Below, one piece after another: positions 21,355 through 41,679 of a DNA stretch of 64,000 nt. This stretch comes from Candidatus Heimdallarchaeota archaeon (GTDB lineage Archaea; Asgardarchaeota; Heimdallarchaeia; Heimdallarchaeales; Heimdallarchaeaceae), in contig JAEOTE010000007.1 in assembly GCA_016839945.1 (NCBI GenBank), positions 85,959 to 149,958 on the forward strand, written 5' to 3'. A model generated the notes under the pieces. That model was given only the letters and a program-made list of their open reading frames with translations, was not told the DNA's origin and searched no databases. Each line of letters starts with the position of its first letter. Within the stretch, counting starts at the first letter, position 1. The translations under genes were made by a program, and so were the position numbers.

Positions 21355-22431
21355 ATGAATGGGAAGTATGTGTATGATATTATCATTGAAGGAAACAATC
21401 TTACAGCTACAACTCTTGCATACTTTCTATCACTTAACTACAAAAACAAATCAATTGCTTTAATACAAAGAGAAGATGTACCAAATCGTTCATTCTTTAC
21501 ACCTAATATAGTTGCACCAGTTTTTGAATTATCTGATGAATTTATGAGTAGTGTTTTCAAAAGTAGTAAAGAAAAGCTAATAGAAGTGCATTCTATTTCA
21601 GGACATTTTGAATACTCTCAACTTTCACTAATTCTATTATACAAAGAATTGGAAACGCAAGAAATAAGAAAAAATCATGAAAAAAAACTAACAAATTCTG
21701 AAATAAAGTATAAGCATTTATCACAAGAAGAGATTTCATCCTATTATCCTTTCATCTCATCAGGAGAAGAGATTAAAATTACAGAAATCTATGAATCTTT
21801 TACCTGTTCAGATGTAAATGATTTAATGGTTGTTTTTCAAAAATTAGCAGAGGAAAATGGAGTAGAAATAATAGGAAATGCGAGTAAGTTAAATTTCTAT
21901 GAGAAAGAAGGTATTTTTGAAACGGAAGATAATGAATTTACTCCAAATGAGTTTTCAATAGTTACATCACCAGGATTTAATAGAATAAAAAGCATTGTTG
22001 ACCAACAAGTTCTAAGAGTCACAACACCAATTCTTGAGAATTTTCCTAGAGTAAATCTTGTAGATGTTAGCACTCATACTCAAATGTGGTTAGAAGAATC
22101 AGGCTATTTCCAAATCTTCAGAGTTTTTAATGAGGTAGAAGAAAAGCAATGTGTTAAACAAATAAAAGATAATTTTAAAAGATTGTTTCCGTTGCTTGGA
22201 GTTTTACAAACAATTGATTCAAACTTCATAAATCTAAAAACAAATACTTCCTTAGAAGATTCTGTAGGAACTTTTGATAAGTCAAAAACATATTATTTTC
22301 ATATTCCTTCTCAAATGGAATTATCAATTATTCCAAGTATAGCAGAAAGGTTTTCGATTTTACAAAAGAAAAATGAAACTGAATTTTTATCTGATATCTC
22401 GTTAAGAAAGATTCTTAGCTCAGAAAAATAA
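21355..22431 (+). CDS. FAD-dependent-oxidoreductase/GDI-like Rossmann protein with degenerate dinucleotide motif
   Basis: YDIIIEGNNLTATTLAYFLSLNYKNKSIALIQRED at N-terminus; later EFSIVTSPGFNRI; overall DAO-like organisation. Confidence 0.5.
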   Translation: MNGKYVYDIIIEGNNLTATTLAYFLSLNYKNKSIALIQREDVPNRSFFTPNIVAPVFELSDEFMSSVFKSSKEKLIEVHSISGHFEYSQLSLILLYKELETQEIRKNHEKKLTNSEIKYKHLSQEEISSYYPFISSGEEIKITEIYESFTCSDVNDLMVVFQKLAEENGVEIIGNASKLNFYEKEGIFETEDNEFTPNEFSIVTSPGFNRIKSIVDQQVLRVTTPILENFPRVNLVDVSTHTQMWLEESGYFQIFRVFNEVEEKQCVKQIKDNFKRLFPLLGVLQTIDSNFINLKTNTSLEDSVGTFDKSKTYYFHIPSQMELSIIPSIAERFSILQKKNETEFLSDISLRKILSSEK

Positions 22432-22440
22432 GTCAAGTTA

Positions 22441-24798
22441 TTATTTTGAGTACTCTACTAGGAATTCATCAAATTTCATTTGTTTATCATGAAAATACCT
22501 CCTTAAAACTCTTGTATGAATCTTAAGAAGTTGTTTTGATAAACTTGAGATTTTCTTATCTTTTGCAGCTGTTTTTATCAATACCAAAATTATTTCAGCA
22601 TTTAATCCTCGAGATTTATTCGCAAAGGTTTTTCTTCCTTCAGCATTTAGTTTTTTCATTTCTTTAATAATGAATTTAGTACTTTCCTGTCCAAGATTAT
22701 TCAGAGCTTTTATTCCTAGTTTATGTTCTTCCTCAACCACTTTTTTAACAGCTTCAGGAACGATAGATGTTTCTCTAGCTAATGAAAGGAGAATTACAAG
22801 TCTATCTTTAGTTTTGGTAGTTTTTATTTTACCATAGTATTTTTTCAGAGGATTAGCAGCATTTTTACCCATGTTTTTAATAACTTGCTGAAGATTGTTA
22901 AACCACCTTTCATCAGCTGTTTTTAATTTAGGAAGTATTATGTCAAGGATTTTGCTATCCATTTGACCAAGAGCTTTTATTGTGGATTTTACTAAGTTTT
23001 GATTAGGAGCTGATAATTTATCTGAAAGTTTTTTCACAATTGGAGCACCAATTTGAACTGCAGCATATACAGCTGCTTCTCTTACCAATATTTTTGGTCT
23101 TCTCATATTATCAATAATAACATCAACGACTCCTGGATCCTTTAACTCACCTAAAGCTCTTGTTGATATTTCAGCAATTGAATCATCATTATCTTTTGCT
23201 GCTCTTATTAATGTCATTAGTGCTCGTTTGTGTTTTATTTTTCTAAGAGATTCAACCGCTTTTCGTCTTAGATTTATATTTGGATCAGATAAAATTGATG
23301 AAAGAATTGGTACGGATTTTGCACCAAATTGGTTAAGAAGTTCACATGCTTTTTCTCTTATTATAGGATCGATTTCTTTCAAAGATTTCTCTAATAGTTG
23401 AAAAAGCTCATCATTTATATCTCTGAATTTACCTTTATGAATAGCGAATGAATGCCCTAAATCTTGTAGTTCTTTTTCTGGATAATAGATGTACAAAATT
23501 GTACCTAACTTAACAACTTGAGGTAAATTAACATCCAATAATCCATCGAGAGCCAGTTCAATGTTCTCATTACCGAAATAATGTAAAACTTCTATTGCGT
23601 TTTTTCTAAGTTGTAAATCATCTTCAGTTAATTCCTCTATTAGAACGCGAATTGAAGGTGTTCCAAGTGTGAGTAAAGCTTGTGTAACTGCTTCGATGAT
23701 TGATGGATTCTTTCCTGCTAATTGTGTAGTTAATAAACGAATTGCCCCTTCATACCCATATTTCTGGCTCATTACTAAAGTTAGACAATGAGCGGCATTT
23801 TTTCTTACATTTTTCTTCCCTTTATGAAGAGCATCCATTAAATAATCATAGCTTTCATCACCAATTCTTTTCATAGTTTCAATAATAAAAGGTACATTTT
23901 TGTCCTCTTCAAGAGCAGTTATTAAATGGGGGAGAACACTCTCTCCAATCAGTGCTAACGATTTAGCAGCATAATATCCTGCTGGGTCACCTTTTTTGAA
24001 TTGTTTAACTAAAATGGTTGTAGCCTTGGGACTCCCTAAATTACCAAGAGCTTCGATTATAGATAGTTGAGTATCTATTGTATCATCAAAGTTAGATAAT
24101 CTGTCAATGAGAATGCTAGAGTTCTTTGGATCATCAACATGCATAAGAGCTAGAGATGCATATTTAACATGCTCTTGCTTATCTGTTTTTGAAACTAAAG
24201 TTCTAAGTTCTTTCACTATTAAATGAGTTAATTCCGGATATTTGGTTAATGTGAGTAAGGTAAGCTCTGGAAAAGTAGGATTGAATTGATTCATTCTAAA
24301 AGCTAATATCTTTTTTATGCTCTTAGGATGCTCTGATATAAAGTTAAAATCTATGAAGGTTTCTTCATAGTTCGAAAAAGAAGAATAACAAGTTCTTGCA
24401 GAAAGTTCAGCTAGAGTTGAAGAAACGGGTGTTACTGAATATGATGCTTTGATTGAATTGAATATATCTCCAGGTTTAAGCGATGTTATAATTTCACAAA
24501 GAATTTCAAAGCTCTCTTCTTTAACTAAGTAATCTGCTAGAAGAGAGATAAAATGATCAAGCTTTTCAATAATCACTTCTCGGATTTGAGGATCAGGTTT
24601 TTTTATGTATGCTTTTAGAATCTTCTCTGTAGGAACATAGGAGGTACTGAAAAGCAGTTTGAGTGCATTTCTTCTAATAATGACATCATTGTCTACTAAA
24701 AAATCAACCAAAATATCATAATCTTTTATATTTTCTAATTTTATTTTTTCAATCTCATCTTCCTCATGGAGAAGAAGTTTCAATTGCTCCTTATTCAA
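22441..24798 (-). CDS. HEAT-repeat (PBS lyase-type) protein, 785 aa
   Basis: Many helical repeats, e.g. LRRKAVESLRKIKHKRALMTLIRAAKDNDDSIAEISTRALGELKDPGVVDVI. Confidence 0.9.
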   Translation of the reverse strand: MNKEQLKLLLHEEDEIEKIKLENIKDYDILVDFLVDNDVIIRRNALKLLFSTSYVPTEKILKAYIKKPDPQIREVIIEKLDHFISLLADYLVKEESFEILCEIITSLKPGDIFNSIKASYSVTPVSSTLAELSARTCYSSFSNYEETFIDFNFISEHPKSIKKILAFRMNQFNPTFPELTLLTLTKYPELTHLIVKELRTLVSKTDKQEHVKYASLALMHVDDPKNSSILIDRLSNFDDTIDTQLSIIEALGNLGSPKATTILVKQFKKGDPAGYYAAKSLALIGESVLPHLITALEEDKNVPFIIETMKRIGDESYDYLMDALHKGKKNVRKNAAHCLTLVMSQKYGYEGAIRLLTTQLAGKNPSIIEAVTQALLTLGTPSIRVLIEELTEDDLQLRKNAIEVLHYFGNENIELALDGLLDVNLPQVVKLGTILYIYYPEKELQDLGHSFAIHKGKFRDINDELFQLLEKSLKEIDPIIREKACELLNQFGAKSVPILSSILSDPNINLRRKAVESLRKIKHKRALMTLIRAAKDNDDSIAEISTRALGELKDPGVVDVIIDNMRRPKILVREAAVYAAVQIGAPIVKKLSDKLSAPNQNLVKSTIKALGQMDSKILDIILPKLKTADERWFNNLQQVIKNMGKNAANPLKKYYGKIKTTKTKDRLVILLSLARETSIVPEAVKKVVEEEHKLGIKALNNLGQESTKFIIKEMKKLNAEGRKTFANKSRGLNAEIILVLIKTAAKDKKISSLSKQLLKIHTRVLRRYFHDKQMKFDEFLVEYSK

Positions 24799-25394
24799 GG
24801 AGTCTTCCCCCTCATATCTTTCCGATATTGCAAGTAATTTATAATCTCAGTTCCTAGTTCCTCAAAAGCATTTTGAACATTTTCCCCAGTTTTGGCAGAA
24901 GTTTCAAAATACTTTACTTTGAATCCTTTGGATCCGTAGCTAGAATTCAGTTCTTCTATGAATTTCATAACTCTCTCACTTACTGATTCCCTTCTACTTT
25001 TTGAAATAAGATCCATTTTATTCCCTAATATGAAGAAAGGTACAATACCTCTTTCAGTTCCCTTTTCAAGTTCTTTAACCCATTTTTCTAATTTCTTTAG
25101 AGTTGTTATCTTGGTTGCATCAAACACCATTAGTGCACCTAATGCTCCTCTATAATACATCATTCTTACTTTCTCAAAGATATCTTGACCGGCTATATCC
25201 CAGATTTGATACAAAATAGAGATGTTGTTTACCGTCTTTGGTAATGATGCAAAATCTGCTCCTATTGTTTCTAAATGATTAGTAATAAAACTCTCGCCAA
25301 GATAAGATCTTCTAAGACTTGTTTTTCCAACTGCTCCTTCTCCCGCAAGAATAACCTTCAAGTAAAGTTTCTGTCCATAACTCACATTATTCAC
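24795..25394 (-). CDS. Ras/Rab-family small GTPase
   Basis: GEGAVGKTS, WDIAGQ, NKMD, ETSAKTG; 4-nt overlaps with neighbours on both sides. Confidence 0.93.
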   Translation of the reverse strand: MNNVSYGQKLYLKVILAGEGAVGKTSLRRSYLGESFITNHLETIGADFASLPKTVNNISILYQIWDIAGQDIFEKVRMMYYRGALGALMVFDATKITTLKKLEKWVKELEKGTERGIVPFFILGNKMDLISKSRRESVSERVMKFIEELNSSYGSKGFKVKYFETSAKTGENVQNAFEELGTEIINYLQYRKDMRGKTP

Positions 25395-27166
25395 GTCTTT
25401 TTATTTGATGCAATATTTCCTTCTTCATTAATTCTACCTAGTTTCTTATTTAAGAATTTAAACATTGAGGAAAGAGGAGAAAAAAGAGTAAAAATTAGTA
25501 CAAAAGAACCTAGTAAAATTGTTAGAAAATAGAGAAATCCACCATTGAGTATCAAGCCTAGATTTGGAGTTATTATCATTCCAACAATGAAATTATTTGC
25601 TACATGTAGGAAAATTGCAGCGTGTAATCCATATTTATAGAATGCATATCCAAAAACCAATCCTGCTACAGCTGCTTGAACTATTTTCCCTTCTAACCAA
25701 TTACCTGGATGATAATGGACATAACCAAAACAAAATGATGAAAATATCAGAAAAACAAAATCAAAGAATTCAAATTTTTTCCATCTTCCAGTTAAATAAA
25801 GAAGAGGATTTTTTAATTCTCTTTCAGTTAGAAATTTTGTTAATTTCGACTTCTGCTTATTCTCTTTTCTTCTTCTTAACATTATAAATTGGACGATTTT
25901 TATACAAACAAAATATAAGCCATTGAGTACAAACAAAGGTAGTCCAAATAAGATCCATCGGTAGGTAATTTCTTCATGAAAACCAGCCCAAAATGCTCTA
26001 GACATTTCAACATAAAGCTGATCAAGATCAATAGAAATTTGTGATATAATTGGAACCCCTAGATTCATTAGAATTGTTATTAAAAGAGTTGAAAGAGCAA
26101 TATTCAAGCAGAGTAAGTTTATAACCGGAATTAAATCACTCTTTTTAGCAGTGGAAATAAGTTTTGAAAATCTACTCCTTTTTGATTCAGGAATTCTTTC
26201 AACAGGGATATATCCTTCATAATTAATTTTTTGATTAAGAATATTGAAAGCTATGTTATCAAGTGAATCTTCTTCCAAAAATTTATCTTCTTTTGATATC
26301 TTTTCCTTTTCTTTTTTATCTTTAGGAAGATAAATTAAAAGAAATAGAATTCCAAAAAGAGCTAAAGACATAAGCGATTGAGCAAGTTTCCAGTCAACTA
26401 TTATTGATTTAGGTAATTCTATAAATTTGAAGAAATCCTGCCTAAAACCTGTAGAAGGATTATAACTATATTCAAAATTTGGGAAAGTAAAAATTAAAGT
26501 TTCAACTCTACTTGATGCAGGAATAGATGGATAGATAATAAAGACAAGTAGATTGGCTAGTAATAGAGATAAGCCAATGAATAACATCATATTATTCCAC
26601 TTGTTTTTAATGGAATATTCAACTTGTCTTACAGCTGATTCTATACCAAGTTCTGGTTTGTCTGGGATTAAAACCTCTTTATAAAAAAGGAGACCAAGGT
26701 GTTTCTCTATCCCGGAATACAGGAATATTCCAACAAGTATACTAAATAGCGATAATTGAATTAATTCTAAGAGGGTGATAGAGATATTTGTCAACACAGA
26801 TATTGTATTGAGAGAGGAGAAATAAATAACTAGAGAGTATGCACCTACTCCAAGATAGAAGGGTAAAAAGAAAAGGAATACACTCTTCAACGGTTGATCT
26901 TTCCTATCGATATCATTCTTAACAAACCATCTTCTAAAGAGCCAACCATAAATTATAAATGTTATAATTGCAAGAAAATATAACAAAATTGTGTAATAGG
27001 ATATTGATGGAAAGTATGCTTTTAGTACAACATTTAAAGTAGTTAAAACACTAACAATTGTTACTATAATTAAAGAATGAAATAAAAAATTCTGAAATCT
27101 CATTAGTACCAATTGTCCTTTTTTAAGTAACGTCTCAATTCTTATCAAGTTATAGGTATTTATCAA
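25391..27166 (-). CDS. CPBP-family intramembrane metalloprotease (Rce1/Abi-like)
   Basis: Polytopic; motifs AFWAGFHEEITYRWILFG, FCFGYVHYHPG, HAAIFLHVANNFIVG. Confidence 0.85.
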   Translation of the reverse strand: MINTYNLIRIETLLKKGQLVLMRFQNFLFHSLIIVTIVSVLTTLNVVLKAYFPSISYYTILLYFLAIITFIIYGWLFRRWFVKNDIDRKDQPLKSVFLFFLPFYLGVGAYSLVIYFSSLNTISVLTNISITLLELIQLSLFSILVGIFLYSGIEKHLGLLFYKEVLIPDKPELGIESAVRQVEYSIKNKWNNMMLFIGLSLLLANLLVFIIYPSIPASSRVETLIFTFPNFEYSYNPSTGFRQDFFKFIELPKSIIVDWKLAQSLMSLALFGILFLLIYLPKDKKEKEKISKEDKFLEEDSLDNIAFNILNQKINYEGYIPVERIPESKRSRFSKLISTAKKSDLIPVINLLCLNIALSTLLITILMNLGVPIISQISIDLDQLYVEMSRAFWAGFHEEITYRWILFGLPLFVLNGLYFVCIKIVQFIMLRRRKENKQKSKLTKFLTERELKNPLLYLTGRWKKFEFFDFVFLIFSSFCFGYVHYHPGNWLEGKIVQAAVAGLVFGYAFYKYGLHAAIFLHVANNFIVGMIITPNLGLILNGGFLYFLTILLGSFVLIFTLFSPLSSMFKFLNKKLGRINEEGNIASNKKT

Positions 27167-29166: not shown

Positions 29167-32100
29167 TTATTTTACCTCCTTATTTTTGTTTTGAGATGTT
29201 GATTTAGAAGTATTGCTCTTCGAGTTTTTTTGAGAAACATCAAGCAATGTTGTTTGTTTTCCTTTTGTTGCTTTAGGTATAGTTGCAGTTTGTTTAATTA
29301 CTACTTTTGGCTTAGTTACTGTCTTAGATTTAGTTGCAGTTGATGATTTTGAAGGTGTTTTTGCAGCTGTTTTAACAGGTTTCTTCTTCTTTGGCTTGAG
29401 TTTTGCCTTGGGTAATCTATTCTTAAGATTTTTTATTGAAAGATAGCTAAGGTTTGTTTTCTCATCCATGTTTGTTGATGGATAGACAACAAACTCCTTG
29501 ATGGTTTTGACTCCCAACACTGTTATTTGATTTCTCGCTTCTGACTCCACTTCAAGATTTCTTAATGGTTTTTCTAAGAACTCTTTTAGGTCTTTTACAC
29601 CTTGTTCTTCAAGCAGAGGATTCTTTACTATACTAGGTTCTGGAAATACTAATTGTTGTATTGTTTTTATCCCAGCTTTGTTCAGCTGAGTTATTAATTC
29701 TTCACTCAGGAAAGGATGAGTTTTTCTTATTAAAACAACCTCTTTTTCTGCATCCTTTATGGAATCCTGTGTAAAGTTTGAGAAGTAAGTTCTCAATTGA
29801 CTTACCTGAATCCCAGTTATTTTGGAAAGACTTTGTGCAGTTTGTGCAAAAATATCCCAAAGTGTATGAATATTGTTCTTATGAAGTTCAGCTACACTTT
29901 GTGGATTGTCACTAATTATATCACTTAGATAATAAAATGGTAAATCTAGATTTCGTTTTATCCTTGAAACCTGAATACTATTCAACTTTGAGGTTTTCAC
30001 AATCAGTTCTTCGGAAACATTCAAATGTGCTATAGTTGTATATCCCGATTTGATTAACAGTTTTCTAATATTAGCATCAAATAATCCTATTTTCTTGACA
30101 CTGTAACTCTTACTCTTCAATGTTTCATTGACTAACTGGCTATTCATCTTATCTTGAAGAGACTTTACAATTGCTTGCTCTTGTTCAGTTAGACTTACGC
30201 TTATCGCTTTTCTTATATCTGGAATTGAAACAAAATCAATAACTTGGATTATACCTTCGTTATGGAATTTTTCCAAAAGTCTTGGTTGATTAATGAATAT
30301 AAGCATTGGAGCTCTTAACTTCTCGATAATTTTCACAATTTCAGAAGAATAGTCTTTAGGATCTTTGCTTTCAATATATTCAAGTAAAATTCCTATAGTT
30401 CGAATATCTTCTTTGCGTAGGAATGATAGTATTTCTTTGTCCTTTATGAACGAACTAAGTCTCTTCTGTTCAGAAGACATCATCCTTTCCACTCTTGTAG
30501 AGGAAAGTTTAGGTAGAAGAGATGTACATGTTGTTTCATATTCTATTTCACTTAATGATTTACAGTAAATTAAGAAATCAAAAACAGTCTGAAGCTTCAT
30601 CTTATTCATTAAGTCATAAATCTTCTTATTTTCTCTAACAGGTGGAAGAGAAAAAAGATCAGTTTCTACCATGTTCTTTAATGAATCTGAGGTCTTCCAA
30701 ACACTGCTTGTTTTTGATTTAGCTTGTTTATTGAATACAAGCGCTTCTTCAACTGATAGGATAAAACCTTTCTTAAGGATGGAAATATTGCTTCCTGAAA
30801 GTAAATCTTTAGGTATGCTTGTTAGGCTTCCTTCCAACTCCTTCAAAGTAATTAATGAGATATTCCTTAGATTTCTTAGGAAAACTGGATCAGGGATTTG
30901 GCTCTTAATCTTATTATAATCCTCTAACAATAATTCGTCTATACTCCTATAGGGAAGTTTTGAGATGATATCAACTTTCAACCTGTTTGGTTGAAGTAGG
31001 ATTATTGTTCTTTTTAGATGATATGAGAGTTCATTATACTTCTTGCTTATCTTAGAATGAAGCTTTGAAATTGTTTTATTATAGAGTTCTTTTTCATGTT
31101 TTTGCAATAACAAAAGGTATTCTATTGAGGAATCTGACATATCAAGTTTTTGATCTTTTGATTCAAGATTTAATACTTGCATCAGAGTTATACCTTTATT
31201 GAAAATAGAATTAATGGCATTTTGAATATCTTCTCTTTGTTTTTTGGTTACACTTATCTTATTGAGATTCATTGATAAATATGCTAAATCTAGTAGATTG
31301 AGAGAATATTCAGTTTTTGATACTAAATCCTTAAGCACTAACTTTTCAAATACTTTTATTTTATCAAGTAAATAATTAGGAATCTTATCTAATGATACTT
31401 CTTCATCAAAAAGATCGGAGTAATACTTGATACTTCTCTGATTTAGAATCGCTATATCCTTTGCAGAGAATATCTTACTTTCTTTTATCACTGGATGGCT
31501 TCCAAAATTACTGCTTGTTAAAGAGTATCTTATTTTTTCAACTTCTGCTTGTTTTAATAAGAGAATTGAAGCAAGTTCTTTGTTAGTTAATAGATAAAAT
31601 TCTTCTAAATTCTTAACATAGTTCTGTATGTTTTTCCAACTCTTAATTGTAACATCAGGAAGGAGTAAAAGCTCAATGGGTAGTTTTAGAATTCTCTTTA
31701 TTTTGTTTGCCAGAGATTTGGAAAATGTGAACGTTTCTTTGTTTAAAGCAAAAATCAAATCATCCATTGTTGAATAATGTTTCTGAATTTCTTTCTTTGT
31801 TTCAGAATCGAAAATTTTCACTCTGCTTAACTGTACTTTCTTCTTAACATCTGTTTCAATTTTCTTGTAAGTTAGTGAAGAGGTAATTTCTAGGATTTTA
31901 TCTTTCAATTTAGCAGGGGACAATATCATCCAAGAAGAGATGGGTTTTATTATGAGATCTCCTATAGTGTAAATACTCTTATCTTCTAAAATCTGTAGAT
32001 CTGCCTTTGTTAGAACAGCGAGTGAGGAAATGGGTTTGGAGAATGTTTGTTCAATTTTGAGACCCAAATCCGATAGTGAATCCTCTTTTTGATATAGTGT

Positions 32101-35100
32101 TGTTATTAAATCCAATATACTCTTAATTTTTGTTGTTTTTGTTTTCTTTGTGAACAATTCTTTAACATCGCTTTCCTCTATGTATTGATCTTTGGATATA
32201 TAATTAGCTATTATACCTTCTTTTGATGCTAAGTAGTCTCCTAAGAATCCAACAATATTTGCTTTTTCTGTAGCATCACTTGTTTTCATTAAATCTCGAA
32301 AAGTTACTATTCCAGAATCTAAATAGTTGCTTTTTATTTCATTTAGATTCTTTTGATTGATTTTTGGATAATAAAGGACAGAAGTGTTATAGACTTCTTC
32401 TGCTTTATTTTGAATTTGTTTAATCTTTTTCTCTGAAACTAACCAGTCGTAAATTGTGTTATTCATTAAATCCTCGAGATTGTAAATTCCTATAGATTTC
32501 AGATAATTTCTGTCTTGAGCTGATAGGAAGAAAATTTCTTTCAAGTTTTGTTCTGCAACGGAATCTATTCGTTGAACAATCGAATCTACTTTGAAATTCT
32601 TAATAGTATTTTGAATAGTTGTGACTTTTACTTTTGAAGTAGTTGCAATAACTTTAGGAGATAGATAGAAGATATCTGCAATAATATTAACACCTGCAGA
32701 TTTCATTTTCTCTAAATCTTTAGGATCAAAATCTAGAAAGCGTAGATTCGCCAATAAATATGGAGTAATTTTCTTGAAAATGACTTCATCATCTTTGAAT
32801 GTAGGTGATGTCAATATTGATTTGTATGAAGAATATCCTTTGTTTGATAAATCAACTTCTAATTCGGATAATGGTTCTTTAAATCCCTCTTCTTTTATAC
32901 CTTTTATTAACGAGAGAGAGAGAATAATTTCATCTTGAATATTCTTTGGTAATTTATTAAGGAATATCAAATGCTCAATGATGGTTGTGAACCCTTTTTC
33001 ATAACAATAATCTAGTGACTCTTTTGTTATTGAGGATAAATAGCTGATATTATTGGATAATTGACTTCTGTAGTCATCAACTTCTTTTCCTTTTACTTTA
33101 CTATTAGTTACGATATGACTAACAGGAACGAAGAAAAGATGCTCAACTGTTGTTATACCTATTTGAAGGAGAGAAGTTGCTGTCTTCTTTGGTAATCCCA
33201 ACATTTCAATTGAGATACCAAACTTATCAATTTTCTTCAGGTTTTTAACAAGATAATCTGGTTCTTCTTTCTGTTTTGTAATAAGCTTACTAAAACTTGC
33301 TGGCCAATTCTTCTGAGGTATAGCTAACAAATCGTTATATGTTGTTATATTACTATTTAACAAGTCTTTAATTTCTGTATCTTTCAGCTTTAATGATTTT
33401 CCAATTAACGTTATTGGGGTTAATAAAATAGAGATGAGTTTTACAAGATTTTTCTTTTCCTCAATAGGTATTGGTATTAAATCAAGATTAAGCTCTGATG
33501 CTTGAACTAGAGATACACAACCATACTCGGAAAGAATGGTTTTGGTTTCCTTTGTTATTTCAGAGAATAGGCTTAAATCAAGACCTATTAATTTTACATT
33601 TTCTTCTAATGATTTAATATCAATAGTTGTTTTAATGGTCCTTATTTTTTCTTCTGCAACATTGATTAGTTTGGCTAAGAGTGGAGCTGGAATGAGAAGG
33701 AATTGGTAAAGGTTTCGAATGCCATTGTGTTTTAGTTTTTCTATTTGTTTGGAAGTTAGGTTACCTATATAGGATAATGGAATACTTTTTAGTGATAGAA
33801 GTAGAGGGCAAACTTCTGAGAGTAATTCTCTTTTTTCTACAATCTTACTATCTAGTGATAAAAGCTCATCTAGATAGAGTATTTTTTCATCCTTTAATCT
33901 CTTAATAAGAGCTGAATCTGAAACAATCTTAATATCAGAGAGTTTGATCGCCCATTCTGGAGGGCTTATCTGTATAACTATACTATTAAGAACCTCTACT
34001 ATTTTAGAATGCAGATCATGATTTTCCTCTTTCTCTGATAAACATAATAATCCTGATACAATGTTGTTACAATCGCTTTGAGACAAAATATTCAATTGTG
34101 CAATGTTAAGCTCAACGTTAGAAATGAGCCATGAAATTGGCTTAAACATATTTGAAGTGATTATTCTGATTAATGATTTCTCGATATCTCCAAAATCAAA
34201 AACTGGGTGAGGTATGAAATCTACTAATAATAGAGCACTTGATAATCCATATTTCATAAATTGTTCTTCTGCTTTATTTGGAAAGGAGAGAGCATGATCA
34301 ATATAGTATGAAAATGTTTCTGACATTCTTGTACTCAAATTAAATTCTCTTTGGAATATTCTTATTTGCTTTGCTACAGCTTTTGGTATACCAATTATTG
34401 TGTTGACATTTGTTGAGAGAAGTTCAATAACATGTTTAATACCATTATTCCATAGAACTCCTTTAGAAGAAATATCAAAACCTGGTAATGCAAGAACATT
34501 CAAACACAGAAAGCTAACTAATTGTTCAATAAATGCTATGCTTGAGATTTTTTCTATTCTTTCAGATTCTGATAGTTGTAGCAGTGCATCTGGGATAAAA
34601 CCAAATATATCTTCTACAGCTTTTTTTGTTGGATCGAATTCAAGAGATTTAAGCAAGTTGATTATAGGTTCGTTAAGGGTTAATGTTCTACCTTTTGAAA
34701 GTGTGAAAGTGCCTTTCCTAGCTGAACTTATGGTTTTTGGAATTGAACCATTCAAGGCTCGTTTCAAATCCTTATCTGAACAATTAAAGAGATCAATCAA
34801 CCTCAGAATTCCTTCACTAGTTAAGTTTAGTTTCTCCTCTGAAGATAACTCTGAAATTCGGTAAATTGAGATGTGACACGCGTTTAGAAAATCTCTCATA
34901 TAGTCCCCAGAGACACTCAATGTAGGATATGCTTGATAATTTGAACTATACAAATCTTGAACATGTATTTTTCCAGATTTAAGTAGAGAATTAATTTTTC
35001 CCTTTGATAAAACAAAGAAGTTTACTAACTCGACACCTTTTCGTTTAACTTCTTTCATCAAATTAGAAGGAGTGATTTTGTCCAAGTATGTTTGCACTTT

Positions 35101-38100
35101 TTTCTCTGACATGTTTAGTAAAAGAGAGATTGTAGAAACATCCTCTGTAATAAAGGAGAGGATATCACCTACACCTGAATATATAAGCTTCATTACATGA
35201 TGATTATCTAAACCAATAAAAGCTACAGAAGAGCGATATAGTTGCACTTCTCTAAAGATATCTAATCGAACTAGAGCAGGACGAGATTCTCTTATTTCTT
35301 CCATTCTTGATATAAAGTCTTGTACGGAGTTGATACCTATATCTAGTAGTTTTTCGAGATAATCTTCCTCAATTGAAGGACAAACAGTAAGAGGTATAGC
35401 AGAACTAATTCTTCTTTCTGATAACTCATCGAATGATATGAGATCTAGTGCATGAAACTCTTTGTATATTGGATTTTGCGTAATTGTAAATAACTCATCT
35501 CTATTCAATAAAGCAAGATCTATAACGGAATTTATTTCATGATACTCCAGACGTTTAATTTCATCATAAGATAGAAAGCCTATGAATCGGATTGAGCCAG
35601 ATAAGAGTTCTTTTGCTTTCTTATATACGTCAACTTGAAGTATTTCAGAGATACCTAACAAAGATGCTGAATAGAAGAGAGTTTCAATATCTGTAATCCC
35701 TAAATCTTTTAGCTCATCTAGTTTTTTCTCTGGTATTAGTTCTGATGGTCTTATTAAGTGAGATTGTGATAAACGGAAGGACACAATATCGGTGTAGGTT
35801 AGACCTTCTTTTATTTCTCTTATTTGTTTCTGGGAAAAACCAGAGATTTCTGAGAGTTGCTTTTCTGGAAGTGAGAAGAAATCAATCAATGTATTAATTG
35901 AAGATTTGCTCAACTTGAGAGTAAGTTCTCTTGGAAGCCCCATGGAAGCTATTGGGATTGCTAATTCCATTATTAGTTTATTAAGAGAGTCAGTCTCCAT
36001 TAAACTTGAGAAGAAAGGCGAGAGGGCAGAATGTTCCTCCAGATTTATTTCAAATACATCACCAATTATGACGTTTTTGTATTCTTCTCTACGAGCTTTT
36101 CTGATCTTAGTGAAGAAGGGTGTGATTCTAAGAGGTAACTCTAAAATTGATCGAATTAATGTTAGATTATAATGATCTGTAAGGTATTGTTTGTCTTTAC
36201 CAGTTAAGTCTTTTATAACTTTTGGATCAGTAATAACATCTGATAACGTTTTATTTTCTACTTCTTGAATAACCCTGTTGAAATATGATGAATTATATAC
36301 AGATGCAGGTAGTTTAGCGAAGTAATGGAAAGCTTGCATTACTATTATTTTTGAAGAATATGTAGAAACAACTCTGTAAAGCACTGGGTCTTTAAGATCT
36401 ATATCAGGAATGAAAAGTAATTGGTAAACATAATGGATATCATTTTGTTCTAAAACCTCTAATGAAAATTCTGAAATCTCTGTAAAAATCTTCAAAGGTA
36501 AGGTGAGGTATTTCTTAACAGCTGATATCTTTATCCACAATTCTGGATTAGAGAAATAATACTGTTCTTCTATAGTATAGAATATTTCTTGAATTGTTTG
36601 GAATCTTTCAAAGTGGAATATTGAATCTTTACTCAATAATCTTTGTTCAAGTTTATCAAACAATTGAGTTTCAAAAGCAAAAATACCCTTTTGTTCATAC
36701 ATTGCTTGAATGCTTGAGGATGTCAGAGAAGTTATTATACTTTCAGCATCCTTTGGAGAGATTTTTATGAGTTTGCTTAGTTTTTGAGATGATGCAAGAA
36801 TAAACTCAGATATTGTTTTTATTCCATTTTCTCTTAGAATTTCTGTTTGACTAAATGAGAGCGATGGTAAGAAATAAACAGGTAGTGAGAAGTAGCCAAA
36901 TATATCTGAAAAGTCTAAAGCACTTTTTATTGTTTCAAATCTTTCATCTGGTATTCCTGTTTTTTCCATCAGAACTTCAGGAGAGGATAACATAAAACCA
37001 AGTAAAGTCCTTATTTTTGCTTTTTCTAATAGTTCTATGATTTCAGGATCTAGCATATCAGAAATATGATCCAAAGATAGATTCAAGATAGCTTTAAAGG
37101 ATTCAATAACATCCCATGGTAAAATTTCCTCATTCCACTTATCTTTTGAAGTTGAGAAGTATAAATCCTCAATTGTCATTATGTTATTTTCATCCAACAC
37201 TCTGACAATTCTAGGTTCTAATATTCCTAATTCAGAAAGGTCAATTCCAGTATCACTTATTCTAACATTCCTTTGAAGAAGTATAGCTTCTTCATTATCT
37301 ACTCCTAAGAAAGAAGCAATATCTTCAGATTTACTTACTAGTAAATCAATAATTTTAGTGATTCCATTATTTCTCAAAATGTTGAGTTGTTGGGTTGTCA
37401 AGGTTCTAGTTTGGACCTCTTCTATTTCTTGTGTTTCTTCGGATTCTTCAACTTGAACAGTTTTCTTGATGATTTTCTCCCATGTTACTAGTGTTAAAGG
37501 AGACCTCAGTAGCTTTCTGAACTTATCAATGACATTCCAGTTAACTACTGCTGAAGAAAAAGTGAGAGGGTGGGCTAAGTAAAAAATCTTATCCACTGTA
37601 TCATAGCCAGAAAGTATTAGTGATACAATTTCGTGTGAAGAAAATCTCTCTGATTCTTCGTATTCAAATGATATTAGAGAAGTATATTTATTTCCTGATT
37701 TTTCAAAGAAATGAGTACCTTTTTTCTCAATTGCGAAAACATCTATTAATTGCTGGGTTTCTTGAGTAGACCTTACTAAAGTAGCTGCTAACTCATCAAT
37801 AGTATATTCAAATAATTGATGAATAGCTGTTATCCCTCTGTTCCTTAATTTATCAAAATCTTCAAGAGTTAACTTACTTATTCTAGAAATTGGTAAACCT
37901 AGAGTTTGAACGAATTCATCATATTCACTAATTAGTAAGATTTCCTTACTAAATTGATCAGTTTCTGAAAATGTTCTATTCTTGATATTATTGTGAAGCT
38001 CAATAACAAGTTTTCTTTCTTTAGCAGTGTTTAACTCAGATTCAATAATTTCTGGAATAAGATCTAAAAATTGTCTTACTGTTACAATATTTCTTAATTT

Positions 38101-41100
38101 CAAACGAAGAAGAGCTTCTGTAAGCAGAGATAAATCCTTGAATTTGTCTGGATATAGTTGAGTAAGTTCGATTATTTCCATATTCGCTAATTGATTTAAA
38201 TGTCGAATATTTTCCCAAAAACCTGTATTCAATGTTGGTTTTTCAGTAGGGTAAACACTGTATAGATCTTGGATTGTTAGGTTATGTTTTTCTATGAATT
38301 GAACTAATCTTGGATATTGGTTACTAAGTAAACTCAAACTCTTTCCAAATTCTGTTCTATTCTTTTTTACTTCTTCTTCACTTATTGATTGTTTTAAATC
38401 CTTTACCCTTTCTTCTGATATGTTTAATACATCAGATAAATCAGAATTAGACCAGATTGAGAACCTGCCAATACAGTTTATTCCTATTTCTTGCAATAAA
38501 TATGATTGCCTTCTTAATGAAGGAAATGCAAAAGATATAGGAGTTAATAAAAGATTTGCAGTTTCTAGATATGTTCTTTTTGCTTCTCCTGTTAGATTGT
38601 AAGCTTCAGGAGGATTGTAAAAAATTTCCTCAATAGATACTATTCCTGCAGTTTTTAGTGTTTCTTGATGTTTTATCCATTTGAATATTGGAGTTCCAAG
38701 ACTCTTTTTTATTCTCTCAACATCTTTTTTTCTCAAACCTAACTTTCTTAATTGAGGTGATGGAAATGCTAAGAATGCAGTAGTTGTAAAAATTTGAAGA
38801 TTAACTAATTGTTGCTCAATATCCTTTGGTATTACTTTAACGTGAGACAAATCTTTATCTTTCTTTGACTCTCGAATGTGAGATATTAATTTGTGTTTTG
38901 ATTCCTTGAGTAGTAGATCACCTATCAATTTGTAATCTCTTTTCAAAATTGATGCTGTGGGTAAAGAGATTAGGTTAGTAAGAGTCTTTATACCTTTTTG
39001 AGATAGAACCTTTATGGCTTCTGTTTCCTCTTCCCTAAGTATTTCATCAGAAATTAACTCAAATTTAGATAGTTCAATAGATTCTGAGGATTTGACTAGA
39101 GTATCTAGAAAGGTATTGTACAAATTCCTCTCTAGTTCCTTTATTACAACAAGATCATCTAGTTTAGCATTAATTAAATCCTCAATTGTTTTTATTTTTC
39201 TTCTATGAAAAGCGTTCTTAGTATAAGCATCTGTCCAATCAGGTTTCATCTTAGTTACATTGGTCTTAGAAAATGTAGGAAACTTATCACATAGTTGAGA
39301 AAAAATATTTTGCAGGTAATTAACTAAAACAGCTGTTACTTCTGTTTGATAGTTTACTGAATATGGTAATTTTGTTTGGTAAAGAAATTCTTCAATGGTT
39401 GTATCTTGAGATATCAAACCTTTAGAATTATCTTTTAGATACTCAAAAGTTGGAAATAGTGTATCTATTTTTATGTCATCAACTTTGGTGAGTGAAGCCA
39501 GAAGTTGTTTTCTTTTTTCTGATTTAGCTTTACTTGTTTTATCCTTGGTTAGTAAGTACTGATGAAGGAGCTGTTCTTTTTTATTTTCGAAAAGTTTCTC
39601 TAGTAATCCAGTAACTGTTTGTAGTTTGTTAAAATCTGTAGCGAAATAATGGTAACTGTTTTGTATCCATCTTCGATATAAAGCCTCTTTTAATGTGATT
39701 ATAGTTTTTTCATTTTGAGTAAATCTTCTTTCTATAGTTCTACTTACAAAGAGTTTAGGATCAAAACTAGGGCTCATTCCCTCTCTATCAAGTTCAGATA
39801 TCGTTCTAAGTTTGATATTGTAGATATCTTGTTTAGTAAGTTCTAACAGTTTTGCTATATTATCAGATGGTGTTATGAGAAAATCAGAAATAGATTCAAT
39901 ATTGTTTGTTCGAAGAACTGATTGAATTCTTGATGGACACCATACATTAGCACCAAATAATCTTCTTCCCAAAGGCATGAAGAGCTTAACTTTTTTTGTT
40001 GCACCATGAGCCAAGGCCGCAGCAATTCTGTCAGTTTCTAACCTAAAATCAGTATAATTAACTGCTTCATCTTCTAAAATTTTTGTTAGATTATCTATGA
40101 TTATTGGTGCAGATCTTACAAAGCGTGATAATCTTGCATGCTCTCTTCTTCTTCTTTTAGCTCTGCTTAAAAATGTCTTTAGTCTTCTCCCCAACTGCAT
40201 TAATGCTAATCGTATCTCTTCCTCAATCTCAGGAACAATGGATATATATTCTTTACTTGTTTCTGGAAAAGGAATCTTAGTACTTACTACTGATACAGCT
40301 ACAGCTAGAGGATCAGATTGCCTTGTTAACCCATATTCATTCCATCTTATTGAAGAAACAGTATGAGAAATAACATCGTTCCCTGCTCCAAATATGAGTG
40401 GGATACGATTTGCGTACCTATAAATTATTTTATTATCTTGAACGGTAGCTCCCTTTACTTGCGAAGCTTCATTTACTCCCCCTCCATAACCTATTGCTAC
40501 TTCTACAACAAAGGGATGACCAGAATAAGCTTTAGGAGCTCTTGTTACAGCTTCTACAAATTTAGGTTCCAGTTCTTTTTCTAAACCCCTCCTTAATCTA
40601 TTCGATCCTAATGGTGATAAAGCAGTACCTTTTGGATCATCAAACTGAAATATTCTATCTCTTTTTCTTTTAACATCTTTCGCTTCTTGGTAAGCTTTTA
40701 CAAAACCTTCATGAACTATTCTTCTGATTTCGTGAGAGGTAATATCTTTTGGAGATTTGTTTGGATCAATCTCTAAAAGTTGGAAGAAACCTTCTGCTAT
40801 TTCCTCATTTACTCCCATGAATTGTGTTGCTAGAAATTGCTTGAGTGTTTTGCTTTGACTTGCAGTTAATTCTGCCTTGAACTGAGTAATATCACACCCC
40901 CATGGATGAATTTTAACTGGTTGAGGAGGGGGAGGCATATCATCTACAACACTAAGAAAGTCCAGATCTTCATATTCACCTTCTTTATCTGCAGGAACTT
41001 TGATTTTAAAACTGGAATAAGGGGTAATAATTGCTAATTGCTTAAAATATTCTTTTACGCTATTCTTAGCAAGCCTCCATGCTCCTGTAAAAGTGATTGA

Positions 41101-41679
41101 TATTTCTGTTCCAGGTTCTTCAAGATAGTTTGGATCTCCTGGTAGGTACTCACGTTGTTCCATGATTACAGGTTCGTTCTTTTCAAGATTTATCATTAAA
41201 TGAAGCTCATGGGTAATATCATCCATAAAGTATCTGCTTCGTATTTTTGCAGGTAAGTCAACAGATGACATAGAGTATAGCAAACACATTTTTGCTCCTA
41301 AACCAAAACGACCTCGTGTTTGAATTACTCCGTATTTTGTTCCAGTCAATACTCTCCCAAAAAGTTCAGCAATCTGGTGTCCAGGAACTCCTATCCCATT
41401 ATCTTTACAGGTTAGTTGTAGAAAATCTAGATGCTTTTCTAATTTTCTGTATTGCGTAACATCAAGCAATTCATTTATTTCTCTGCTGGAAAGTTTTCTT
41501 AAGTCTAAATCAATAACAGGATTAATTCCTCTTTTTTCTGCTGCATCTAGTCCATTCTCAACTAACTCTCTGATACTTGTGAAAACAGCTCTCATTGAAT
41601 TACCAAAACCAGCAATGGCTCTGTTTTCATTAAAGAAAGCAGCAGCTGACATTTTTTTTGTAACTGTATCTTCTGACAC
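29167..41679 (-). CDS. top6B: Giant DNA topoisomerase VI subunit B (4170 aa): GHKL/H2TH/transducer core plus very large HhH-like repeat extension
   Basis: SIRELVENGLDAAE, CKDNGIGVPGHQIAELFGRVLTGTKYGVIQTRGRFGLGAKMCLLYS, RAPKAYSGHPFVVEVAIGYGG, YANRIPLIFGAGNDVISHTV; the rest is recurring L..GI.TI.DL......L.....I.....I...K pattern. Confidence 0.96.
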   Translation of the reverse strand: MSEDTVTKKMSAAAFFNENRAIAGFGNSMRAVFTSIRELVENGLDAAEKRGINPVIDLDLRKLSSREINELLDVTQYRKLEKHLDFLQLTCKDNGIGVPGHQIAELFGRVLTGTKYGVIQTRGRFGLGAKMCLLYSMSSVDLPAKIRSRYFMDDITHELHLMINLEKNEPVIMEQREYLPGDPNYLEEPGTEISITFTGAWRLAKNSVKEYFKQLAIITPYSSFKIKVPADKEGEYEDLDFLSVVDDMPPPPQPVKIHPWGCDITQFKAELTASQSKTLKQFLATQFMGVNEEIAEGFFQLLEIDPNKSPKDITSHEIRRIVHEGFVKAYQEAKDVKRKRDRIFQFDDPKGTALSPLGSNRLRRGLEKELEPKFVEAVTRAPKAYSGHPFVVEVAIGYGGGVNEASQVKGATVQDNKIIYRYANRIPLIFGAGNDVISHTVSSIRWNEYGLTRQSDPLAVAVSVVSTKIPFPETSKEYISIVPEIEEEIRLALMQLGRRLKTFLSRAKRRRREHARLSRFVRSAPIIIDNLTKILEDEAVNYTDFRLETDRIAAALAHGATKKVKLFMPLGRRLFGANVWCPSRIQSVLRTNNIESISDFLITPSDNIAKLLELTKQDIYNIKLRTISELDREGMSPSFDPKLFVSRTIERRFTQNEKTIITLKEALYRRWIQNSYHYFATDFNKLQTVTGLLEKLFENKKEQLLHQYLLTKDKTSKAKSEKRKQLLASLTKVDDIKIDTLFPTFEYLKDNSKGLISQDTTIEEFLYQTKLPYSVNYQTEVTAVLVNYLQNIFSQLCDKFPTFSKTNVTKMKPDWTDAYTKNAFHRRKIKTIEDLINAKLDDLVVIKELERNLYNTFLDTLVKSSESIELSKFELISDEILREEETEAIKVLSQKGIKTLTNLISLPTASILKRDYKLIGDLLLKESKHKLISHIRESKKDKDLSHVKVIPKDIEQQLVNLQIFTTTAFLAFPSPQLRKLGLRKKDVERIKKSLGTPIFKWIKHQETLKTAGIVSIEEIFYNPPEAYNLTGEAKRTYLETANLLLTPISFAFPSLRRQSYLLQEIGINCIGRFSIWSNSDLSDVLNISEERVKDLKQSISEEEVKKNRTEFGKSLSLLSNQYPRLVQFIEKHNLTIQDLYSVYPTEKPTLNTGFWENIRHLNQLANMEIIELTQLYPDKFKDLSLLTEALLRLKLRNIVTVRQFLDLIPEIIESELNTAKERKLVIELHNNIKNRTFSETDQFSKEILLISEYDEFVQTLGLPISRISKLTLEDFDKLRNRGITAIHQLFEYTIDELAATLVRSTQETQQLIDVFAIEKKGTHFFEKSGNKYTSLISFEYEESERFSSHEIVSLILSGYDTVDKIFYLAHPLTFSSAVVNWNVIDKFRKLLRSPLTLVTWEKIIKKTVQVEESEETQEIEEVQTRTLTTQQLNILRNNGITKIIDLLVSKSEDIASFLGVDNEEAILLQRNVRISDTGIDLSELGILEPRIVRVLDENNIMTIEDLYFSTSKDKWNEEILPWDVIESFKAILNLSLDHISDMLDPEIIELLEKAKIRTLLGFMLSSPEVLMEKTGIPDERFETIKSALDFSDIFGYFSLPVYFLPSLSFSQTEILRENGIKTISEFILASSQKLSKLIKISPKDAESIITSLTSSSIQAMYEQKGIFAFETQLFDKLEQRLLSKDSIFHFERFQTIQEIFYTIEEQYYFSNPELWIKISAVKKYLTLPLKIFTEISEFSLEVLEQNDIHYVYQLLFIPDIDLKDPVLYRVVSTYSSKIIVMQAFHYFAKLPASVYNSSYFNRVIQEVENKTLSDVITDPKVIKDLTGKDKQYLTDHYNLTLIRSILELPLRITPFFTKIRKARREEYKNVIIGDVFEINLEEHSALSPFFSSLMETDSLNKLIMELAIPIASMGLPRELTLKLSKSSINTLIDFFSLPEKQLSEISGFSQKQIREIKEGLTYTDIVSFRLSQSHLIRPSELIPEKKLDELKDLGITDIETLFYSASLLGISEILQVDVYKKAKELLSGSIRFIGFLSYDEIKRLEYHEINSVIDLALLNRDELFTITQNPIYKEFHALDLISFDELSERRISSAIPLTVCPSIEEDYLEKLLDIGINSVQDFISRMEEIRESRPALVRLDIFREVQLYRSSVAFIGLDNHHVMKLIYSGVGDILSFITEDVSTISLLLNMSEKKVQTYLDKITPSNLMKEVKRKGVELVNFFVLSKGKINSLLKSGKIHVQDLYSSNYQAYPTLSVSGDYMRDFLNACHISIYRISELSSEEKLNLTSEGILRLIDLFNCSDKDLKRALNGSIPKTISSARKGTFTLSKGRTLTLNEPIINLLKSLEFDPTKKAVEDIFGFIPDALLQLSESERIEKISSIAFIEQLVSFLCLNVLALPGFDISSKGVLWNNGIKHVIELLSTNVNTIIGIPKAVAKQIRIFQREFNLSTRMSETFSYYIDHALSFPNKAEEQFMKYGLSSALLLVDFIPHPVFDFGDIEKSLIRIITSNMFKPISWLISNVELNIAQLNILSQSDCNNIVSGLLCLSEKEENHDLHSKIVEVLNSIVIQISPPEWAIKLSDIKIVSDSALIKRLKDEKILYLDELLSLDSKIVEKRELLSEVCPLLLSLKSIPLSYIGNLTSKQIEKLKHNGIRNLYQFLLIPAPLLAKLINVAEEKIRTIKTTIDIKSLEENVKLIGLDLSLFSEITKETKTILSEYGCVSLVQASELNLDLIPIPIEEKKNLVKLISILLTPITLIGKSLKLKDTEIKDLLNSNITTYNDLLAIPQKNWPASFSKLITKQKEEPDYLVKNLKKIDKFGISIEMLGLPKKTATSLLQIGITTVEHLFFVPVSHIVTNSKVKGKEVDDYRSQLSNNISYLSSITKESLDYCYEKGFTTIIEHLIFLNKLPKNIQDEIILSLSLIKGIKEEGFKEPLSELEVDLSNKGYSSYKSILTSPTFKDDEVIFKKITPYLLANLRFLDFDPKDLEKMKSAGVNIIADIFYLSPKVIATTSKVKVTTIQNTIKNFKVDSIVQRIDSVAEQNLKEIFFLSAQDRNYLKSIGIYNLEDLMNNTIYDWLVSEKKIKQIQNKAEEVYNTSVLYYPKINQKNLNEIKSNYLDSGIVTFRDLMKTSDATEKANIVGFLGDYLASKEGIIANYISKDQYIEESDVKELFTKKTKTTKIKSILDLITTLYQKEDSLSDLGLKIEQTFSKPISSLAVLTKADLQILEDKSIYTIGDLIIKPISSWMILSPAKLKDKILEITSSLTYKKIETDVKKKVQLSRVKIFDSETKKEIQKHYSTMDDLIFALNKETFTFSKSLANKIKRILKLPIELLLLPDVTIKSWKNIQNYVKNLEEFYLLTNKELASILLLKQAEVEKIRYSLTSSNFGSHPVIKESKIFSAKDIAILNQRSIKYYSDLFDEEVSLDKIPNYLLDKIKVFEKLVLKDLVSKTEYSLNLLDLAYLSMNLNKISVTKKQREDIQNAINSIFNKGITLMQVLNLESKDQKLDMSDSSIEYLLLLQKHEKELYNKTISKLHSKISKKYNELSYHLKRTIILLQPNRLKVDIISKLPYRSIDELLLEDYNKIKSQIPDPVFLRNLRNISLITLKELEGSLTSIPKDLLSGSNISILKKGFILSVEEALVFNKQAKSKTSSVWKTSDSLKNMVETDLFSLPPVRENKKIYDLMNKMKLQTVFDFLIYCKSLSEIEYETTCTSLLPKLSSTRVERMMSSEQKRLSSFIKDKEILSFLRKEDIRTIGILLEYIESKDPKDYSSEIVKIIEKLRAPMLIFINQPRLLEKFHNEGIIQVIDFVSIPDIRKAISVSLTEQEQAIVKSLQDKMNSQLVNETLKSKSYSVKKIGLFDANIRKLLIKSGYTTIAHLNVSEELIVKTSKLNSIQVSRIKRNLDLPFYYLSDIISDNPQSVAELHKNNIHTLWDIFAQTAQSLSKITGIQVSQLRTYFSNFTQDSIKDAEKEVVLIRKTHPFLSEELITQLNKAGIKTIQQLVFPEPSIVKNPLLEEQGVKDLKEFLEKPLRNLEVESEARNQITVLGVKTIKEFVVYPSTNMDEKTNLSYLSIKNLKNRLPKAKLKPKKKKPVKTAAKTPSKSSTATKSKTVTKPKVVIKQTATIPKATKGKQTTLLDVSQKNSKSNTSKSTSQNKNKEVK
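29410..39940 (-). repeat. Degenerate HhH/DUF4332-like protein repeats within top6B
   Basis: By eye: LRTNNIESISDFLITPSDNIAKLLELTKQDIYNIK; LRENGIKTISEFILASSQKLSKLIKISPKDAESI; LIKSGYTTIAHLNVSEELIVKTSKLNSIQVSRIKRNL and many others. Confidence 0.8.

Follow-up and report, generated by a model that had tools for sequence, protein, structure and literature searches.

Organization of the trio locus and identity of its products

Three minus-strand open reading frames (ORFs) were located at 25391-27166, 24795-25394 and 22441-24798 of the window (the whole 64,000-nucleotide stretch of DNA analysed), in agreement with the first-pass annotation. The trio itself spans 22441-27103 (-) and encodes a multi-transmembrane (TM) protein whose C-terminal domain is CPBP (Rce1-like), a Rab-like small GTPase and a 785-aa HEAT-repeat protein. 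Orthologues and a conserved ATG placed the start of the CPBP gene (25391..27103) at ATG 27103, so that its product has 570 aa and not 591 aa, the annotated start being 63 nt too far upstream; residues of this protein are numbered here on the 591-aa ORF starting at 27166. The genes had been described as joined by 4-nt overlaps. This held for the GTPase and HEAT genes (TTGA), whereas the overlap between the CPBP and GTPase genes is uncertain: the GTPase could start at GTG 25394, giving a 4-nt GTGA overlap, or at GTG 25385, the start that the orthologues pointed to, giving a 5-nt gap after the CPBP gene. On mechanically called starts, the spacers in 21 measured loci ranged from −14 to +39 nt between the CPBP and GTPase genes and from −4 to +1 nt between the GTPase and HEAT genes, and the recurrence of such short same-strand spacers argues that the tight spacing of the trio is not due to chance.

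The GTPase (24795..25394, 199 aa, or from GTG 25385) matched the Ras family PF00071 in Pfam (E 1.9e-38, 132 bits) and carries all of the G1-G5 motifs, namely the P-loop GEGAVGKT (25320..25343), TIGADF, WDIAGQ, NKMD and TSAKT, which bore out the proposed Ras/Rab-like identity. Residue Q70 was invariant in all 20 trio orthologues aligned, Rab7/Ypt7 were the closest solved structures by sequence, and a tree that included paralogues grouped the trio GTPases as a single clade (UFBoot 100). The C-terminus, YRKDMRGKTP, had been noted to lack Cys; the results showed that the prenylatable C-terminal Cys of eukaryotic Rab is absent in every trio orthologue. Within this genome, strong Ras-family and HEAT_2 matches lie close together at the trio locus only.

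The HEAT-repeat protein (22441..24798) matched HEAT_2 PF13646 in Pfam (E 1.8e-36), and its all-helical model (mean pLDDT 89) agreed with this assignment, as first annotated. An entropy scan revealed two conserved regions: residues 331-420 (23539..23808), the most conserved and with invariant columns, which form a candidate partner-binding surface, and residues 505-560 (23119..23286). Among the Foldseek matches listed, karyopherins, CAND1, SF3B1 and mTOR gave TMq values of ~0.14-0.27, which represent generic HEAT similarity. The scaffold or effector role suggested for the protein in the first-pass annotation is plausible.

A whole-protein hmmscan gave no CPBP match for the third product, whereas its CPBP core alone matched PF02517 (37.9 bits vs a cut-off of 22.4; 39 bits in a genome-level search), which supported the earlier assignment to the Rce1/Abi-like (CPBP) family. 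Averaged hydropathy suggested that ~6 TM segments at the N-terminus are joined to the CPBP core by a linker of ~70 aa, predicted from its charge to be cytosolic. One linker segment (DNIAFNIL...GYIPVERI, residues 303-325, 26192..26260) was recognisable in orthologues of the genus, both those of active type and those lacking the active-site His residues (described below), and was weaker in L024; it is a candidate docking motif, the rest of the linker being variable. When the CPBP alignment was searched against PDB sequences, nothing matched at E <= 1, and Foldseek with the CPBP model (mean pLDDT 74) gave no match at E <= 0.001. The catalytic motif residues E398, E399 and R403 (motif 1, EExxxR; E398 at 25973..25975), H484 (motif 2, FGYVH; 25715..25717), H521 and N525 or D525 (motif 3, HxxxN/D; 25592..25606) were intact in the window protein and 12 other full-length orthologues (13/19 aligned), so most CPBP orthologues, the window's included, could be active proteases.

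Conservation and distribution of the trio

Comparison of synteny across Asgard genomes, which the first-pass annotation had proposed as a check of the operon, revealed that the order, strand and tight spacing of the trio are kept in every one of the 22 Heimdallarchaeaceae genomes covering the locus. The three genes are thus a conserved unit, and the locus is confined to this single family: at E <= 1e-20, the HEAT orthologue turned up in 22 of the 23 family genomes and 205 other Asgard genomes gave no match, and the same 205 genomes held no near-full-length CPBP matches, only partial distant homologues. The named matches came from MAGs labelled Candidatus Heimdallarchaeota or Asgard group and from the complete genome of Heimdallarchaeum endolithica. 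The trio was not found in the 23rd family genome (G009), where the region is probably unassembled, because TopoVI-A, its neighbour in other genomes of the genus, is missing there as well; elsewhere a contig end cuts the trio GTPase (G008) or the CPBP gene is split across two contigs (G021). No report of this GTPase–HEAT–CPBP operon was found in the literature searched.

The flanking genes, encoding Alba, an FAD protein, a TIGR04076 protein and UbiA, were also syntenic in all three genera, and gene order and linkage alone are therefore non-specific evidence of shared function. The convergent FAD/DAO-like gene (21355-22431, +), a weak Pfam match, showed family-wide synteny yet only 28-43% identity in most orthologues. 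Further along the window, a 4170-aa ORF (29167-41679, -) continues past its TopoVI-B transducer domain (349-514) into a very long extension that matches RAD51D_N and helix-hairpin-helix, and TopoVI-A lies directly downstream of the ORF; its orthologues in other genomes of the genus reach at least 1850 aa within the stretches fetched. Alba in L024 (G022, C1 ~3010001-3017500) does not have the TopoVI genes upstream, unlike in genus g1.

Related genes were also inspected outside the family. In family f6, the CPBP homologues (L078-L084) have other GTPases nearby but form no same-strand trio; those of L078-L083 are large (588-640 aa), stand two genes from small GTPases with differing strands, and some start with Cys-rich CxxC segments. 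A trio in families f3/f4 was rejected, since the best GTPase matches there adjoin TatD or EutA genes and not HEAT or CPBP genes. The Rab-like GTPase genes of L025, L026, L029, L030 and L046 in these families adjoin genes for TatD-type DNases, with 4-nt overlaps in L026 and L046, and an EutA-like gene adjoins the GTPase gene in two members of the order (L027 and L032).

Absence of CaaX substrates and protein prenyltransferase

Membership of the CPBP core in PF02517 raises the explanation that the protein processes prenylated GTPases like eukaryotic Rce1. The first-pass annotation had considered classical CaaX processing of the trio GTPase unlikely and suggested a genome search for CaaX-bearing substrates. 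No CaaX end was found among the ~30 Ras-family proteins of this genome that were inspected, some weaker loci being represented by a neighbouring ORF; the one Cys found within six residues of a C-terminus, at position −2 of a single locus, does not make a CaaX box. In none of the 23 family genomes did a PPTA match exceed the cut-off, and PF00432 matches did so in only 4 of them. Among the Ras-family ends and PPTA searches examined, we thus found neither the CaaX substrate nor the protein prenyltransferase that would accompany a CaaX-processing Rce1. Together with the Cys-less C-terminus of every trio orthologue, these results led us to reject CaaX maturation, which is very improbable. Asgard Rabs in general lack geranylgeranylation cysteines, and how they target membranes is an open question (PMC10933270).

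Loss of the active-site His residues in one subclade

Alignment of the 19 full-length CPBP proteins revealed that six of them (L017, L020, L040, L042, L043 and L044) carry Gln in place of H484, Asn in place of H521, and Glu or Ser at position 525, whereas E398, E399 and R403 are kept in all aligned orthologues, these six included. The CPBP tree and the HEAT+GTPase tree each united the six genomes as a clade (UFBoot 100), whose stem measured 0.83 in the former vs 0.17 in the latter. Because six separate MAGs share the His changes, sequencing error is argued against; because intact motifs are seen both in the sister group of the clade and in its outgroup, the intact active site is ancestral. The L040 core missed the PF02517 cut-off (18.1 bits), and that of G005 was marginally over it (25.9 bits). 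Other CPBP genes are present in five of the six His-less genomes, and none was found in G017 (80% complete).

In the His-less genomes the operon is complete, and the CPBP protein retains both the 6-TM domain and the motif in its cytosolic linker. Pairwise dN/dS, computed with a Nei-Gojobori-style script, was ~0.19-0.27 within the His-less clade vs ~0.10-0.21 in intact pairs with estimable dS, which indicated that purifying selection persists on these CPBP proteins, slightly weaker than on the intact ones. Y73 G74 W75, Q137, E154 and W259 K260 in the 6-TM domain and P321 in the linker stayed invariant through the His loss. This monophyletic six-genome subclade, which lacks H484, H521 and N525 and retains the operon, is new here: the active-site His residues are dispensable for operon retention in one lineage, and proteolysis is therefore dispensable there. 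The third protein had been taken for a membrane processing enzyme; as a general description, this was not supported, given this subclade.

These results bear on the explanation that the GTPase-HEAT pair gates the CPBP enzyme, cleavage of a membrane substrate sends the signal, and a secondary change of function took place in the His-less subclade. The intact motifs in 13 of the 19 proteins and their ancestral state are in line with it, but six genomes retain the whole operon without both His residues, and the locus has no linked substrate gene. We consider such gating rather unlikely; it may hold in species of the active type.

A GTPase-HEAT pair in a neighbouring family

In G023 (family f2), a GTPase gene is followed after 91 nt by a related HEAT gene, and the 6.3-kb contig of the pair carries no CPBP gene. 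The G023 HEAT protein aligned with the trio HEAT protein at an hhalign probability of 97.3% (E 1.9e-11; 20% identity); it led the decoys on a non-HEAT segment only, repeat-rich HEAT proteins outscoring it elsewhere, and its score in the phylum search is circular, the profile having been trained on it. From these comparisons, the G023 HEAT protein is probably an orthologue of the trio HEAT protein, and the two genes are a probable GTPase-HEAT pair without an adjacent CPBP gene.

Such a pair would fit an explanation in which an older GTPase-HEAT unit shares one transcript, within a generally syntenic block, with a co-expressed but physically unlinked CPBP gene, and the synteny of the flanking genes points the same way. 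On the other side, each of the three genera keeps the CPBP gene beside the pair, also where the His residues have been lost, and the short G023 contig means that a CPBP gene could sit elsewhere in that genome. This explanation therefore appears unlikely to us.

Proposed role of the trio and comparison with known systems

The trio may instead be a membrane signalling module in which the CPBP protein serves as receptor or anchor for the unlipidated GTPase and its HEAT partner, a reading that we favour tentatively, at somewhat less than even confidence. The Rab-like GTPase, having no lipid anchor, would work with a dedicated HEAT partner that acts as scaffold, effector or exchange factor. The multi-TM CPBP protein would be the membrane receptor, with its cytosolic linker and its loops docking both; proteolysis would be an ancestral, regulatory or auxiliary extra that was lost in one subclade. 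Physical binding, membrane recruitment and the direction of signalling are all steps that we infer. The receptor or scaffold role is suggested by the retention of the operon where the active-site His residues are dispensable. It is favoured by the presence of the operon in all 22 covering genomes, with short spacers and invariant GTPase motifs lacking Cys; by the purifying selection on CPBP in the His-less clade, with invariant 6-TM and linker residues; and by the lack of a PPTA match in 23 genomes, alongside Asgard Rabs without geranylgeranylation cysteines (PMC10933270). It is weakened by the synteny of the flanks, the catalytic motifs kept in most orthologues, the slightly higher dN/dS of the His-less pairs and the G023 pair without an adjacent CPBP gene. 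A broader proposal, that Asgard unlipidated Rab-like GTPases reach membranes via dedicated multi-TM receptors, the one in Heimdallarchaeaceae being a repurposed intramembrane protease and in one lineage a pure pseudoprotease, is rather doubtful.

Asgard archaea are relatives of our own cells, in which Rab-like switch proteins direct traffic on membranes. It is an open question by what means, and with which partners, the Rab-like GTPases of these archaea reach membranes in the absence of prenylation (PMC10933270), and the operon gives two candidate partners for one such GTPase. The trio GTPase resembles Thor-Rab and other Asgard Rab-like GTPases (PMC10933270) in being Rab-like without a C-terminal Cys, and differs from them in sitting in an operon with candidate partners. 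The window CPBP protein shares the PF02517 core and the EExxxR, FxxxH and HxxxN motifs with the CPBP glutamic intramembrane proteases Rce1/MmRce1 and myxosortase (MrtX is 239 aa; PMC11980579), but adds the N-terminal domain of ~6 TM segments and the ~70-aa predicted cytosolic linker; in addition, no CaaX GTPase substrate was found for the trio protein, and one subclade is His-less. The loss of catalytic residues with retention of the operon offers a natural experiment for telling docking and proteolytic roles apart. Eukaryotic Rag-Ragulator/mTORC1 and importin-Ran also combine a small GTPase and a HEAT protein, one of the two at a membrane; the likeness to the trio is a works-like analogy, the assemblies not being homologous. 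iRhoms and other pseudoproteases are protease-family membrane proteins kept after their catalytic residues were lost, and the His-less CPBP proteins, although of a different protease family, have likewise been retained without their active-site His residues.
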